Source: Microbacterium sp. No. 7
Lineage (GTDB): Bacteria > Actinomycetota > Actinomycetes > Actinomycetales > Microbacteriaceae
DNA: 64,000 nucleotides
Direction of reading: 5' to 3'
NCBI RefSeq assembly: GCF_001314225.1
Contig: NZ_CP012697.1
Span: forward strand, 992,001-1,056,000
Every line of letters starts with the position of its first letter. The stretch's first letter is position 1. The notes under the pieces were generated by a model. It worked only from the letters and a program-made list of their open reading frames with translations, ran no database searches and was not told the DNA's origin. The position numbers were made by a program, and so were the translations under genes. Positions 11,518 to 18,657 of this stretch are shown piece by piece.

Positions 11518-11602
11518 TATGCTCGTGACCGTCGCGACTGGCGTTGGGTGGGTCACCACCGGGGAGCGACCACAACGGCTATCGACCGCACGCCTGGGTC
11601 GG
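11518..11602 (+). ncRNA. ZTP (pfl) riboswitch upstream of glyA, with -10 element
   Basis: The region 11528-11602 carries the conserved blocks of the pfl/ZTP riboswitch in order: GCGACTGGCG, then GGGTGG, ACCACCGGGGAGCGA, and later CCGCACGCCTGGGTC. This aptamer class senses ZTP or ZMP, which build up when 10-formyl-tetrahydrofolate runs low, and it typically controls glyA, folD and purine genes. Here it precedes glyA, and folD follows. TATGCT at 11518-11523 is a plausible -10 element placing the RNA start near the aptamer's first base. This is the most certain RNA in the window. Confidence 0.93.
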
Positions 11603-11612
11603 GGTTTCGAAA

Positions 11613-13198: not shown

Positions 13199-14080
13199 AT
13201 GACGGCGAAGGTTCTGGACGGCAAGGCGGCGTCGGCGGCGATCAGGGCGGAGCTGACGGAGCGGGTGGCTGCGTTGCGGGCGCGGGGCGTCGTGCCGGGG
13301 ATCGCGACCGTGCTGGTGGGTGCGGACCCGGCATCCCAGCTGTACGTCGGGATGAAGCACCGGCAGTCGCTGGCGCTCGGGATGAACTCGATCCAGCGCG
13401 AGCTGCCCGCCGATGCGACGCAGCAGGACGTCGAGCGCGTCATCGACGAGCTCAACGCCGATCCCGCGTGCCACGGTTACATCGTGCAGCTGCCGCTGCC
13501 GAAGCACCTCGACACCGACGCGATCCTCGAGCGGATCGACCCGGCGAAGGATGCCGACGGCCTGCACCCGGTGAACCTCGGCCGCCTCGTGCTCAACGTC
13601 AACGCCCCGATCACGACGCCGCTGCCCTGCACGCCGCGCGGCGTGATCGAGCTGCTGCTGCGGGGCGGCTACGACCTCAAGGGCCGGCACGTCGTCGTCG
13701 TGGGACGCGGCGTCACGATCGGCCGCTCGATCGGGCTGCTGCTCACGCGCCGCGACCTGAACGCGACCGTGACCCTCACCCACACGGGCACCGTCGACCT
13801 GCCGCGCTACCTGCGTGAGGCCGACGTGATCGTCGCCGCGGCCGGCGTGAAGCACCTCGTGCGCGCCGAGGACGTCAAGCCCGGCGCCGCGGTGCTCGAC
13901 GTCGGCGTCACGCGCGAGACCGACCCCGAGACGGGCAAGGATCGCGTCCACGGCGACGTGCATCCGGGCGTCGCGGACGTCGCGGGCTGGCTCTCGCCCA
14001 ACCCCGGCGGCGTCGGCCCGATGACCGTCGCCCTCCTCATGACCAACGTCGTCGAGGCCGCCGAGCGCGCCGCTGGCTGA
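13199..14080 (+). CDS. folD: Methylenetetrahydrofolate dehydrogenase / methenyltetrahydrofolate cyclohydrolase
   Basis: The 293-residue bifunctional enzyme converts 5,10-methylene-tetrahydrofolate to 10-formyl-tetrahydrofolate with NADP. Visible family marks are [17 protein letters not shown] (catalytic Lys about residue 54), [48 protein letters not shown] in the Rossmann part, and [27 protein letters not shown] C-terminal residues. The start has GAGGAAGTGATGAG upstream. It uses the product of glyA and may share the riboswitch response if read-through crosses the repeat element between them. Confidence 0.96.
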
Positions 14081-14221: not shown

Positions 14222-14409
14222 TCAGCCGGCGAGCTGGGCGTCGGTGACCTTCGCGCCGGACTGCGCCGGGCGGATCCAGTCGTCGAGGGCGTAGCCCTGG
14301 CGGCGGGCCTCGGCCAGGTAGTCGGCCTCGACGGCATCGGGGATCCGCGGGGTGCGGCTGAGCAGCCACAGGTGCGCGCGATCGGGCGTGCCGACGAGCG
14401 CGTGCCGGT
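14222..14409 (-). pseudogene. Lipocalin gene, C-terminal part (split by IS21 element)
   Basis: Read on the minus strand, this piece gives RHALVGTPDRAHLWLLSRTP, then a helix-like tail and the stop at 14222. This is the second half of a bacterial lipocalin (Blc type), a small ligand-binding barrel. The first half is at 18321-18657. Removing the element and one copy of the 6-bp duplication joins the halves into an uninterrupted 172-codon gene, with DDYRHALVGTPDR across the junction. The last six bases, 14404-14409 (GCCGGT), are one copy of the target duplication. Confidence 0.93.
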
Positions 14410-14459
14410 TGACTATGGCAGCGTAAGTCGGACCCACCAGGGCAATCTAAGCGGAGACC
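14410..14459. repeat. IS21 left terminal inverted repeat
   Basis: Begins TGACTATGGCAGCG and includes GGCAATCTAAGCGG. It aligns base for base without gaps with the right end read on the minus strand. Confidence 0.85.
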
Positions 14460-14556
14460 ACTTGCTGCTTGACGGGGTGTCCACGGCAGCCTGAGCCGAG
14501 TCCACCTCCACCGTTGACGGAACTGTTGTTCCGGATGCTGATGGTGGAGGTTTGGG

Positions 14557-16236
14557 ATGGGATCTCGGGTGGATGTGTTCGCGGCGATTCGGCGTGATGC
14601 GCGGGTGGAGGAGCTCTCGATCAGAGAGCTTGCGCGCCGTCATCACGTTGGGCGAGCGACGGTGCGGCAGGCGTTGGCTTCGCCGGAACCGCCGCCGAAG
14701 AAGACGCGGGTGAGGTCGGCGCCGAGGCTTGACCGGTTCAAGCCCGCGATCGACGCGATGCTGCGGGAGGATCTGACGGCACCAAGGAAGCAGCGCCACA
14801 CCGCGACCCGGGTACTGGATCGTCTTATTGAGGAGCACGGAGCGACTGAATTGTCGTATTCGACTGTTCGTAACTACGTCCGCTTTCGCCGGCCCGAGAT
14901 CGACGCGGTCGCGGGCCGGCGGGTGGAGGTCTTCATCCCTCAAGACCACCAGCCAGGTGCGGAGGCTGAGGTCGATTTCGGCGAGGTGTGGGTGGTGCTA
15001 GCTGGGGTGAAGACGAAGTGCCACATGTTCGTGTTCCGGCTCTCTCACTCGGGGAAGGCGATCCACCGGGTTTATTCGACTCAGTCGCAGGAAGCATTCC
15101 TCGAGGGCCACATTGATGCGTTCGAAGAGATTGGCGGCATCCCGACCCGGCATATCCGTTACGACAATCTGACATCGGCAGTCCAGGCGGTGCTCTATGG
15201 CAACGGGCGCGGCCGGATCGAGAACGAGCGGTGGGTGCTGTTCCGCTCCCACTACGGGTTCGATTCGTTCTACTGCCAACCCGGTATCACGGGCGCACAT
15301 GAGAAGGGCGGCGTTGAGGGTGAGGTCGGGCGGTTCCGGCGAACACATTTGACACCCATGCCGGTTGTCGATTCCCTCGCAGAACTCAACGCGAGAATCC
15401 GCGCCTGGGACGCGGCGGATGACAGGCGGCGGATCGCGTCGCGGATTCGCACAGTCGGCCAGGACTTCGCCGTCGAACAGGCACTGCTGTCGCCGCTGCC
15501 GTATGAGCGATTCGATCCAGGCCTGACGCTGCATCCGCGGGTCGACAGGTCGAGTCTGATCACGGTTCGGATGGCGAAGTACTCCGTCCCCGCCCATCTG
15601 ATCGGCCGGAACGTCCGCGTCTCATTACGCGCGTCCGTGGTCGTCGTTTTCGACGGGCACCAGGAAGTTGCCCGCCATGAGCGAGTTGTCGCGCGCGGCG
15701 GACAATCAGTCGTCCTCGACCATTACCTCGAGGTGTTGCGTCAGAAGCCCGGAGCGCTCCCGGGAGCCACCGCCTTAGCGAGGGCGCGGGAGGCCGGAGT
15801 GTTTACGGCTGCCCACGATGCGTTCTGGGCGGCCGCCCGCAAGACCGATGGTGATGCCGTCGGCACGCGAGCCCTCATTGATGTTCTGCTTCTGCACCGG
15901 AGCATGCCCGCAGAGGAAGTGATCGCCGGCATCCACGCAGCACTCCAAGTCGGGGCAGTCACCGCCGATGTCGTCGCTGTCGAAGCCCGCAGACAAACTT
16001 CGACGGGTGGGCCTGGCCTGCATGGTCATCTCCGTGAACTCGCGTCTGGCCGCGAGCAACGAGTTGTCAGTCTCACCCAACGCCGTCTCGCTGATCCGGC
16101 CGCGGTGATCGCAGGTCTCCCGGCCGACACGAGACCACTGCCGAGTGTCGCCGGCTACGACGAACTCTTGGAACGTCGGGCACGCCCGACGCTCACGGAC
16201 GAAGCGATTGATCGGGAAGGAACCACGGGAACATGA
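14557..16236 (+). CDS. istA: IS21-family transposase IstA
   Basis: The 559-residue transposase has an N-terminal HTH (SIRELARRHHVGRATVRQAL, about residues 25-45) and an RNase-H-like integrase core opening EAEVDFGEVWV (about residue 136, first catalytic Asp), followed by the YDNLTSAV region with the second Asp and GAHEKGGVEGEVGR with the Glu. The C-terminal part is the Mu-type beta barrel (RSSLITVRMAKYSVP). It cuts and joins the element's ends. The ATG has GGAGGTTTGGG just upstream. Codon use is slightly less GC-rich than in neighbouring chromosomal genes, which fits a mobile origin. Confidence 0.96.
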   Translation: MGSRVDVFAAIRRDARVEELSIRELARRHHVGRATVRQALASPEPPPKKTRVRSAPRLDRFKPAIDAMLREDLTAPRKQRHTATRVLDRLIEEHGATELSYSTVRNYVRFRRPEIDAVAGRRVEVFIPQDHQPGAEAEVDFGEVWVVLAGVKTKCHMFVFRLSHSGKAIHRVYSTQSQEAFLEGHIDAFEEIGGIPTRHIRYDNLTSAVQAVLYGNGRGRIENERWVLFRSHYGFDSFYCQPGITGAHEKGGVEGEVGRFRRTHLTPMPVVDSLAELNARIRAWDAADDRRRIASRIRTVGQDFAVEQALLSPLPYERFDPGLTLHPRVDRSSLITVRMAKYSVPAHLIGRNVRVSLRASVVVVFDGHQEVARHERVVARGGQSVVLDHYLEVLRQKPGALPGATALARAREAGVFTAAHDAFWAAARKTDGDAVGTRALIDVLLLHRSMPAEEVIAGIHAALQVGAVTADVVAVEARRQTSTGGPGLHGHLRELASGREQRVVSLTQRRLADPAAVIAGLPADTRPLPSVAGYDELLERRARPTLTDEAIDREGTTGT

Positions 16237-17045
16237 CCACGAAACCCACCACCGTCACGACGACGCTGCGCCGGAGACGCGGGCTCACCGAAGAAGCAGC
16301 GATCGCGGCTGTCGATCAGGCCTGCCGGCGTCTCCGGCTCCCGACTGTCCGCGCCGTCGTTGACGAGGCCCTGGTGACCGCGAACCGAGAGCAGCTGTCC
16401 TACCAAGGGTTCCTGGCAGAGCTACTGCTCGCGGAGTGCGATGATCGCGATCGGCGCTCCTCGATTCGGCGCGTGTCTGCGGCTGGCTTCCCGCGGAGCA
16501 AGTGGCTCGGTGACTTCGATTTCGACGCGAACCCGAACATCAACCCGGCCACGATCCACCAACTCGCTACCGGTGACTGGATCCGCAAAGGCGAACCGCT
16601 CTGCCTCATCGGCGACTCCGGTACCGGGAAATCGCATCTACTGATCGGTCTGGGAACCGCGGCTGCAGAGAAGGGCTATCGGGTCAAATACACGCTCGCG
16701 ACGAAACTCGTCAACGAACTCGTCGAAGCCGCCGACGAGAAGCAGCTCGCCCGCACCATCGCTCGCTACGGCCGCGTCGACTTGCTCTGCATCGATGAAC
16801 TCGGCTACATGGAACTCGACCGCCGCGGAGCCGAGCTCCTGTTCCAGGTCCTCACCGAACGCGAAGAGAAGAACTCCGTCGCGATAGCCTCCAACGAATC
16901 GTTCTCCGGATGGACGAGGACCTTCACCGACCCGAGGCTCTGCGCTGCGATCGTCGACCGACTCACGTTCGGTGGCAGCATCATCGAAACCGGCACCGAC
17001 TCCTATCGCCTCGCCCACACCCGCCGACTCACTGACCAGGTCTGA
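16233..17045 (+). CDS. istB: IS21-family helper ATPase IstB
   Basis: The 270-residue AAA+ protein is the target-selection partner of IstA. It has Walker A in LIGDSGTGKSHLLIGLG (about residue 126), Walker B in VDLLCIDELGYMELD and sensor residues in IASNESFSGW. Its ATG overlaps the istA stop (ATGA), the standard IS21 arrangement. It ends 8 bp before the trpS stop codon on the opposite strand. Confidence 0.96.
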   Translation: MTTKPTTVTTTLRRRRGLTEEAAIAAVDQACRRLRLPTVRAVVDEALVTANREQLSYQGFLAELLLAECDDRDRRSSIRRVSAAGFPRSKWLGDFDFDANPNINPATIHQLATGDWIRKGEPLCLIGDSGTGKSHLLIGLGTAAAEKGYRVKYTLATKLVNELVEAADEKQLARTIARYGRVDLLCIDELGYMELDRRGAELLFQVLTEREEKNSVAIASNESFSGWTRTFTDPRLCAAIVDRLTFGGSIIETGTDSYRLAHTRRLTDQV

Positions 17046-17053
17046 CCGAGGTC

Positions 17054-18094
17054 CTAGTAGATCGTCCCCATTGCTTCGCGCACCTGGGCCAGTGTTGACT
17101 CCGCCGAAGTGTTCGCAGCCTCATTGCCGTGGCGAAGAATCGCCCGCACGAGATCCTCGTCTTTGGCGAAGGCTTGCCGCCTCACGCGCAACGGTTCCAA
17201 GAAGTCGTTCACGGCTGTCGCCGTCATGGCTTTCAGGGCGCTGCTGCCGCCATCACCGATCTCGTCGGCTAACTCGGCTGGCTCGACACCGCGGCACAGC
17301 GCGGCCGTCGACAACAGCGCCGAAACACCAGGCCTGTCCTCGGGATCGAAACTGATCCGCCGGTCCTGATCGGTCCGAGTCTGACGAATCACCGCAACTG
17401 TCTCGTCCGGTGTCATAGATAACGCGATCGCGTTCCCGTAGCTCTTCGACATCTTCCGACCGTCCAAGCCCGGAACCTCCGGCGTCGACGTGATCAACGC
17501 ATCCGGAACCGGGAAGACATCCCCATAGCGCTCGTTGAACCGTCGAGCGATCACGCGAGTCATCTCCACATGCGGGAGGTTGTCCTTGCCGACGGGCACG
17601 AGATTGCCTTTGCAGAACAGAATGTCGGCCGCCTGGTGCACCGGATAGGTCAAGAGCAACCCGCTCAACGCGCGCCCGGACGCCGCGAGTTCCGCTTTGA
17701 CGGTCGGATTACGATGCAGTTCCGCCTCGGTGACCAAGCTCAGGAACGGCAGCATCAACTGATTCAGCGCCGGCACCGACGAGTGGGTGAAAATGGTCGT
17801 CCGTTCCGGGTCGATGCCCGCGGCGAGATAGTCGAGCACAGCGCTATAGACGTTCTCGCGAACGTGAGCCATCGTGTCTCGGTCGGTGATGACCTGATAG
17901 TCCGCGAGCACGAGGAACATCTCGACGCCAGCCTGCTGGAGACGCACCCGTTCCCTGATGGTGCCAAAGTAGTGGCCCAGATGCAGCGGCCCAGTCGGCC
18001 GCTCACCCGTGAGGACTCGAAAGTGCTCGGGGTGCTCGGCCACGAGGACCGCGACCTCTGCCGAGCGTTGCGCGGTTGCGATGAAGGACTCCAT
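17054..18094 (-). CDS. trpS: Tryptophanyl-tRNA synthetase, auxiliary copy carried by the IS element
   Basis: This 346-residue class I synthetase charges tRNA-Trp with tryptophan. The HIGH-type motif is PTGPLHLGHYFG (about residue 38) and the KMSKS loop is GRKMSKSYGN. Length is normal, so the gene looks functional. I chose the ATG at 18094, preceded by GGGAGA; the upstream in-frame ATG at 18169 would run through the attenuator hairpin. It lies inside the IS21 ends, opposite to istAB, behind a Trp leader peptide. Streptomyces carry auxiliary TrpRS enzymes that resist the Trp-analogue antibiotic indolmycin and are under attenuation control; a resistance role here is inference. The housekeeping trpS is presumably elsewhere in the genome. 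Confidence 0.95.
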   Translation of the reverse strand: MESFIATAQRSAEVAVLVAEHPEHFRVLTGERPTGPLHLGHYFGTIRERVRLQQAGVEMFLVLADYQVITDRDTMAHVRENVYSAVLDYLAAGIDPERTTIFTHSSVPALNQLMLPFLSLVTEAELHRNPTVKAELAASGRALSGLLLTYPVHQAADILFCKGNLVPVGKDNLPHVEMTRVIARRFNERYGDVFPVPDALITSTPEVPGLDGRKMSKSYGNAIALSMTPDETVAVIRQTRTDQDRRISFDPEDRPGVSALLSTAALCRGVEPAELADEIGDGGSSALKAMTATAVNDFLEPLRVRRQAFAKDEDLVRAILRHGNEAANTSAESTLAQVREAMGTIY

Positions 18095-18137
18095 TTGTGT
18101 CTCCCGATGATTGGGAGCTACACGGAGTACTCGGGCC

Positions 18138-18222
18138 GTTCCACGAGCTGCCGTGCAGCCCGTGAACATACTTCAACCGGCTGCTATCGCAGCCACCACC
18201 AAGCGGAACGGTTGAAGTTCAT
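18138..18222 (-). promoter_or_regulatory. Trp attenuator upstream of trpS
   Basis: On the minus strand, segment 1 (GGCTGC, 18194-18189, overlapping the last Trp codon) can pair with segment 2 (GCAGCC, 18184-18179). Segment 2 can instead pair with segment 3 (GGGCTGC, 18161-18155). Segment 3 pairs with segment 4 (GCAGCTC, 18151-18145) in a strong hairpin spanning 18167-18138. Ten-base arms at 18218-18209 and 18179-18170 extend the first stem. A ribosome stalled on the Trp codons would mask segment 1, let 2 pair with 3, and stop the 3-4 hairpin forming. No U-run follows the hairpin, as is common in actinobacteria. Confidence 0.8.
18184..18222 (-). CDS. Trp-rich leader peptide MNFNRSAWWWLR
   Basis: A 12-codon ORF with three consecutive Trp codons lies 89 bp before the trpS start. 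Trp is the rarest residue, so a WWW run just ahead of a tryptophanyl-tRNA synthetase is the classic mark of an attenuation leader. No Shine-Dalgarno sequence is seen. TAGTAT at 18235-18230 ends 7 bases before the ATG, so the transcript may start at or near the ATG and be translated as a leaderless mRNA, which actinobacteria do often. Confidence 0.88.
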   Translation of the reverse strand: MNFNRSAWWWLR

Positions 18223-18270
18223 GAACGAGATACTACCGGGGCCCGGAACCAAGACCAGAAACCACAGGGT

Positions 18271-18320
18271 GGGTCCCGTTTAGATTGCCGCCCTGGGCCC
18301 AGCTGAGGTTGACATTCTCA
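18271..18320. repeat. IS21 right terminal inverted repeat
   Basis: On the minus strand it begins TGAGAATGTCAACC and includes GGCAATCTAAACGG. It mirrors the left end with 33 of 50 identities. Confidence 0.85.
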
Positions 18321-18657
18321 GCCGGTAGTCGTCGTCGATCTTGAGCACCCAGTAGTCGGCCCGCGTGAACGGGATCCAGCGCAGCGCCGCGGGCAGGAAC
18401 GACACCCGCAGCCGGCCCAGATGCTCGGCGTCGGCGACCGCCTGGCCCAACGCCTGGGTCGGCTCGCCGTCCTCGTCGAGGCACCGGTTGTCGACCCGCA
18501 CCGTGCCGTCGTCGTTCATCGTGTAGCTCGCGGTGACGTCGCGGGCGTCCCGGTCCTCGAAGCGCAGCGGCAGCCGGCCGACCTCGAACCAGTCGCCCAG
18601 GTAGCGATCGAGCTCGAGGTCGTCGACCGAGGCGGGCTCGGCATCGGTGTCGGTCAT
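18321..18657 (-). pseudogene. Lipocalin gene, N-terminal part (split by IS21 element)
   Basis: The piece starts at the ATG at 18657 and carries the lipocalin signature near DLELDRYLGDWFEVGRLPLR, then ADYWVLKIDDDY where the IS begins. The protein is a cytoplasmic Blc-like lipocalin with no signal peptide. After the insertion it would read about 13 foreign residues and stop. The first six bases, 18321-18326 (GCCGGT), are the second copy of the target duplication. Confidence 0.93.

Follow-up and report, generated by a model that had tools for sequence, protein, structure and literature searches.

An IS21-family element of Microbacterium sp. No. 7 that carries an auxiliary trpS gene behind a putative, probably co-captured Trp attenuator

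Does a transposable element of Microbacterium sp. No. 7 carry, along with a tryptophanyl-tRNA synthetase gene, the RNA switch that controls it? The question arises in a 64,000-nt stretch of this genome (hereafter the window, to which all coordinates refer unless a contig is named), where a preliminary description had placed a Trp attenuator upstream of trpS within a transposable element. Attenuation of auxiliary trpS genes is already known in Streptomyces; Vecchione and Sello reportedly described it for trpRS1 in 2010. For the window we consider it quite likely that an auxiliary trpS, its promoter region and its attenuator were acquired as a unit by an IS21 element and today travel with it as passenger cargo, with a ribosome on the leader as the switch.

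The trpS gene and its leader lie in an IS21-family element of 3,911 bp (14410-18320) with termini TGA...TCA, which bears out the placement in a mobile element. The genome holds eight copies of this trpS-carrying element, identical from end to end over exactly this span. Contig C1 holds five of them, C2 two and C3 one, and the flanks differ at each; C3 also has a 922-bp fragment of the right end. The G+C content of the element is 63%, compared with 73% for the window. istA (14557-16236, plus strand) encodes the 559-aa IS21 transposase (NCBIfam transpos_IS21, 246.5 bits, cut-off 160) and istB (16233-17045, plus strand) the 270-aa helper ATPase (NCBIfam IS21_help_AAA, 251.9 bits, cut-off 200). 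Convergent with istB, tail to tail, is trpS (17054-18094, minus strand), which encodes an auxiliary tryptophanyl-tRNA synthetase of 346 aa (Pfam tRNA-synt_1b, E 3e-53; NCBIfam trpS, above cut-off) and is open and full length in 8/8 copies. IS21 elements end in a terminal CA, generate short target duplications and carry repeated transposase sites, several at each end. The window element has istA and istB, the terminal CA and duplications of 5-6 bp at 5/8 copies, and GGCAATCTAA is present at both of its ends.

Three copies, including the one on C3, lack a target duplication. The two C2 copies (G000:C2, 17621 and 38620), which lie 21 kb apart, share the duplication CACGCT split between them, which suggests a past exchange or rearrangement. 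The window copy is flanked by GCCGGT on the left (14404-14409) and on the right (18321-18326). Joining its flanks at the duplication yields the empty site, a single 172-aa lipocalin ORF. The interrupted host gene (18321-18657, minus strand; Pfam Lipocalin_2) has its 3' part to the left of 14410. Because duplications flank five copies and the empty site restores the lipocalin ORF, the element has clearly transposed.

The leader ORF encodes MNFNRSAWWWLR in 12 codons plus a stop codon (18184-18222, minus strand), with three adjacent Trp codons (WWW) at 18201-18193, as the preliminary description had it. The minus strand from 18222 to 18184 reads ATGAACTTCAACCGTTCCGCTTGGTGGTGGCTGCGATAG. A -10-like hexamer, TAGTAT (18230-18235, minus strand), ends 7 nt upstream of the leader ATG with no consensus -35, and a strict scan for consensus sigma-70 promoters was negative throughout the element. 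Since a TAnnnT hexamer ends 6-7 nt upstream of the start in 54/56 leaders of related loci, compared with 2.2% of shuffled upstream sequences, the leader mRNA is probably leaderless and starts at or near the ATG, in agreement with what had been suggested.

Among distinct related trpS loci from the genus and the family, 56/58 had a leader with at least two Trp codons. This count derives from 60 rows, 58 with a leader and two without (L205 and L227), after removal of the duplicates L179 and L208. A Trp leader was present at 6/6 further family loci (L239-L244) and absent at 10/10 Bifidobacterium loci examined, which encode this type of enzyme. In another set of 35 rows, L245 ends before the leader start and L251 and L252 yielded no leader. 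Two loci of the window's genus (L225 and L226, trpS 55-57% identical) have a second, distant type of trpS with WWWPT leaders and other hairpins. An Rfam search around the leader with E up to 5 returned three weak matches, the strongest on the opposite strand and all to unrelated families, which were taken as chance. The only Rfam match in the window above its gathering score was a ZMP/ZTP riboswitch (11524-11606, plus strand), about 1.6 kb upstream of a folD-like gene (13199-14080; Pfam THF_DHG_CYH).

Downstream of the leader start, on the minus strand, the segments pair 1-2, 2-3 and 3-4 as first described. Segment 1 has the core GGCTGC (18189-18194) and the outer part CTTCAACC (18217-18210). 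Segment 2, with the core GCAGCC (18179-18184) and the outer part GGTTGAAG (18178-18171), pairs with segment 1 or segment 3. Segment 3, GGGCTGCACGG (18151-18161), can pair with segment 2, with segment 4, GCAGCTCGTGG (18151-18141), or with a fifth segment considered below. Hairpin 3:4 (18141-18165) is a terminator-like stem without a U-tract. The 131-nt leader folds with a z-score of -3.9, and 1/200 shuffles folded as well. In its best fold the free window RNA forms 1:2 and 3:4. The RNA from segment 2 on, which mimics a ribosome on the Trp codons, forms 2:3, and when segment 2 is masked too, as by a ribosome at the stop codon, 3:4 returns. The folding with and without a ribosome on the Trp codons that had been proposed as a check thus gives the expected switch.

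Conservation of the pairings was examined over 54 aligned leaders, from which L225 and L226 were left out as too distant. The proportion of cells paired was 99.7% for the 1:2 core, 52.3% for the outer part of 1:2, 98.8% for 2:3 and 93.9% for 3:4. The covariation score of 3:4 exceeded all 500 shuffles; three of the five measures stood at 0/500, and shuffles reached the other two in 115 and 98 of 500. In the same leaders the 1:2 helices showed covariation no higher than shuffles, and the 2:3 pairs were barely variable and on a par with shuffles. Among the relatives, the best fold of the free RNA contained 1:2 in 46/54 and 3:4 in 40/54, and masking of segment 2 gave 3:4 in 41/54. Masking segment 1 gave 2:3 as the best equilibrium fold in 14/54 and 3:4 in 35/54, and by itself failed to make 2:3 the best fold in 40/54. 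Since only 14/54 fold 2:3 under this mask, the switch in most relatives would need folding kinetics. The leader has the short ORF with adjacent Trp codons and the mutually exclusive 1:2, 2:3 and 3:4 pairings of a classical attenuator; an intrinsic terminator with a U-tract was not found, there being no T-run after 3:4 and no terminator call there in the scan. Of the claim that trpS is governed by ribosome-mediated attenuation, the attenuator logic is upheld by the folds and the conserved leader, and termination at 3:4 is not established.

Where did the cassette come from? A trpS relative at E 1e-60 occurs in 49/366 genomes of the genus, the window's genome included; one match, in G711, was left out of the locus set. 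The enzyme tree comprised 68 rows, without L155, which contains one stop, and without the relic L153/L209. In it the window trpS does not group with its own genus and falls in a clade of nine rows (support 99/88), all the rest of which belong to other genera within the family; support is weak at the forks closest to the window. L180, where the 5 kb examined shows no istA or istB, has the same -10 region TAGTATCTCGTTC and the same leader. Because of this clade of other genera and the identical -10 region and leader at a locus without istA and istB, trpS was most likely captured together with its control region, and the attenuator, judged by sequence comparison, predates the element.

Related elements were also found outside the eight copies. 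L228, on contig C7 of G1037 (another genus of the same family), keeps both element ends (91% and 87% identical), and a deletion that fuses element positions 722 and 2466 has removed most of istA and istB. Its trpS is full length and 92% identical, with the start codon TTG, and its leader is the same as in the window; the locus is possibly a non-autonomous derivative of the element. In G688, of the window's genus, L153/L209 is a 95% relic of the element in which trpS is frameshifted and a short tail of istB is left. The absence of the Trp codons from homologous elements had been named as a finding that would speak against the attenuator; both L228 and L153 keep the leader. A related IS21 copy (75%) elsewhere in the window's genome has no trpS in the stretch examined.

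Of 29 genus loci examined with as much as 1.5 kb of flank (L108-L111 and L153-L177), only L168, the G464 locus, showed istA and istB. In G464, L208, with istA, istB and trpS in a row (72%), was considered as a second element of this kind and was discounted because its right end was not found. Similarity to an IS21 copy stops near the end of istB, which is frameshifted, and the trpS cassette is 88% identical to that of L232, a locus without istA or istB in 11 kb. L208 may be an insertion sequence adjoining a trpS.

In a set of 72,556 plasmid records, from which close relatives of the window's genome may be missing, none covered 80% of the element. A trpS of 72% identity was found on two Rhodococcus plasmids, and the one examined (L233, Rhodococcus sp. 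DN22 plasmid p1) has a WW leader. L233 also shows complementarity at 9/10 positions between segments 3 and 5 and no annotated IS21 gene in 11 kb. A pattern scan of a viral collection found four trpS relatives of 30-43% identity and no exact match to the leader, and the best trpS relative in 33 phage records was 57.6% identical. In 7/20 related IS21 copies (L027 1-1473, L188, L189, L191, L192, L193 and L195) a MerA-like frame lies behind istB, so the slot occupied by trpS in the window may accept resistance cargo. The one frame checked scored 359.5 bits to MerA, below the cut-off of 454, and is truncated by the end of its locus. L027 also has a MerR-like frame, recognized by eye and without an NCBIfam match.

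How might the leader control trpS? Transcription would begin at or beside the leader ATG, and ribosomes would load onto the leaderless ORF. With ample Trp-tRNA a ribosome would reach the stop codon and mask segment 2, and hairpin 3:4 would form; trpS would then be kept low by termination, by a closed ribosome-binding site, or by both. When charged Trp-tRNA is low, a ribosome stalled on the Trp codons would mask segment 1, 2:3 would replace 3:4, and trpS would be expressed. A possible second step involves the region ahead of trpS. The start of trpS had been placed 44 bp past the last hairpin, and it is indeed at 18094; the gap is not empty, and its 44 nt hold a further hairpin over the trpS ribosome-binding site. 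Segment 5, TCCGTGTAGCTCCC (18113-18126, minus strand), is complementary both to segment 3 and to the Shine-Dalgarno (SD) and start region of trpS, and its role is putative. The ribosome-binding site GGGAG (segment 6; 18101-18105, minus strand) pairs in the folds with CTCCC at 18117-18113. In the second step segment 5 would pair with segment 3 instead of with the trpS start region, which would be freed. Such a two-step model, in which segment 3 draws segment 5 off the trpS start, is possible, and control of trpS may be partly or wholly translational.

The arrangement could also work without termination. If the long RNA is always made, segments 3 and 6 would compete for segment 5, and in this way the ribosome on the leader would determine whether the hairpin that covers the AUG and ribosome-binding site of trpS stays closed; we regard this purely translational scheme as rather unlikely. 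It would account for the missing U-tract, which is absent after 3:4 in the window and its aligned relatives, whereas TTTT follows the hairpin in the Streptomyces plasmid relative L234 and in several genomes of the class (e.g. L260 and L267). The available excerpt on S. lividans trpL2 (PMC8079986) describes that leader as likewise without a U-rich stretch, so the missing U-tract is also compatible with termination. In 60/62 leaders 9 or 10 of 10 positions of segment 5 are complementary to segment 3, the best place being taken, and a 9-nt match is unusual against shuffled downstream sequence (p at most 0.05) in 47/54. The covariation of this pair is suggestive only: changes are mostly one-sided wobbles, two-sided changes are rare (one pair each in L168, in a Rhodococcus leader and in the similar leaders L241 and L243), and shuffles equalled the 3:5 score in 398/500. 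The SD core is paired in 57/62 leaders, compared with 60% when upstream sequences are shuffled. Against this, shuffles exceeded the covariation score of the SD and start helices in 498/500 and the alignment counts were not above shuffles; a fully paired start codon was seen in 41/54 local folds, the window not among them, its start codon being incompletely paired. In transcripts ending before the SD, 3:5 was favoured over 2:3 in 42/54, but 3:4 was also favoured over 2:3 in 41/54, and the window lies outside the 42 (-29.2 for 3:5, -29.3 for 2:3). In transcripts through the SD, 3:5 was favoured in only 5/54. Equilibrium folding gave no state in which the trpS start site is opened by stalling. 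When 2:3 is forced the SD hairpin remains shut, and in the preferred reading this would work against expression, barring a further step that frees the SD. A bolder version of the IS21 passenger reading, which we think rather improbable, makes the element a self-insulating stress cassette. Its leader would be read only on transcripts from its own ATG; a transcript reading in from a host promoter at the insertion site would leave the leader untranslated and folded OFF by default (1:2 and 3:4, with the SD closed). Because read-in transcripts would default to OFF, the cassette would bring both a sensor and insulation to each new site and host. In it the two-step attenuator would link antitermination with access to the trpS start: stalling would release segment 3 from 3:4, and segment 3 would then take over segment 5, uncovering the ribosome-binding site and start codon of trpS.

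What the passenger offers its host is a further point on which readings diverge. An ordinary-type trpS lies at C1:1157360, 33% identical to the element trpS and without a Trp leader; by its sequence the element enzyme is therefore an auxiliary TrpRS, a second and divergent one beside the ordinary enzyme. The passenger may make its host resistant to indolmycin or another TrpRS inhibitor, with the shortage of Trp-tRNA merely the signal sensed. We put this at about an even chance, and among the possible benefits, inhibitor resistance sensed through falling charging of Trp-tRNA appears the most likely. The best solved-structure matches of the enzyme, although distant (E 3e-68), are 1yi8 and 2a4m, the latter named TrpRS II, and presumably of Deinococcus origin. 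We take the histidine of the VDLHALT motif in the host enzyme to occupy the position of Bacillus His43 (H43). At this position the element enzyme and all 155 aligned loci of at least 48% identity have Gln (of 158 such loci three were unaligned at the position, and some places are represented twice), and 18/22 more distant loci have His. The substitution H43N is described as conferring indolmycin resistance in the excerpt available of PMC4899734, and Streptomyces TrpRS1 is indolmycin resistant according to that of PMC9437257. The MerA-like frames behind istB in related IS21 copies point in the same direction. Conversely, Gln differs from the Asn that was tested, and the 10/10 Bifidobacterium loci carry this type of enzyme without the Trp leader, so that Gln occurs independently of an inducible auxiliary role. 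It could also be that the attenuator is a relic, the enzyme being expressed to no effect and the passenger simply hitch-hiking. Copy number would then reflect the transposase, and one relic trpS (L209) is indeed frameshifted; trpS is nevertheless intact in all eight copies and in L228, which has lost istA and istB, and the leader, the pairings and the -10 hexamer are conserved across divergent loci. We hold this to be very unlikely.

The reading we prefer, an IS21 passenger governed by its own captured leader, bears on how a mobile gene is regulated after a move. Control that uses the ribosome and RNA polymerase alone is an economical form of regulation for a mobile gene in a new host, and the eight natural copies at eight sites make the idea of control in a new site testable. 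In segments 3, 5 and 6 Actinobacteria may have an attenuator that acts on transcription and translation together. Among the matches listed in a search of the open-licence literature, none showed an insertion sequence with trpS or another synthetase gene as cargo, or an IS21 element with an attenuator-controlled aminoacyl-tRNA synthetase. To our knowledge, the combination of an insertion sequence and an amino-acid-sensing attenuator captured with its synthetase gene is new.

As an attenuator the leader is of a known class; what is unusual is the downstream layer. Candidate trpS attenuators are described in Streptomyces, e.g. for S. avermitilis trpS2 in the excerpt available of PMC1262725. For S. 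lividans, the excerpt cited above (PMC8079986) describes a leaderless trpL2 with one Trp codon before trpS. The window shares with these auxiliary trpS systems the leader with Trp codons, a probably leaderless start (as in S. lividans), the competing hairpins and the TrpRS gene downstream. It differs from trpL2, as there described, in having three adjacent Trp codons, the U-tract being absent in both, and from the Streptomyces systems in general in having a segment 5 whose sequence could pair either with segment 3 or with the start region of trpS, and a transposable carrier. Compared with IS21 insertion sequences that consist of istA and istB, the element is alike in both proteins, in its TGA...TCA ends and in its 5-6 bp duplications, and is unlike in the stretch of about 1.27 kb from istB to the right end, which houses trpS and its control region. 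The plasmid-borne, mupirocin-insensitive IleRS, in the account available from PMC9437257, is likewise a mobile auxiliary synthetase; that enzyme is encoded on a plasmid, in an account that mentions neither an insertion sequence nor an attenuator, whereas the auxiliary TrpRS of the window travels in an IS21-family element.
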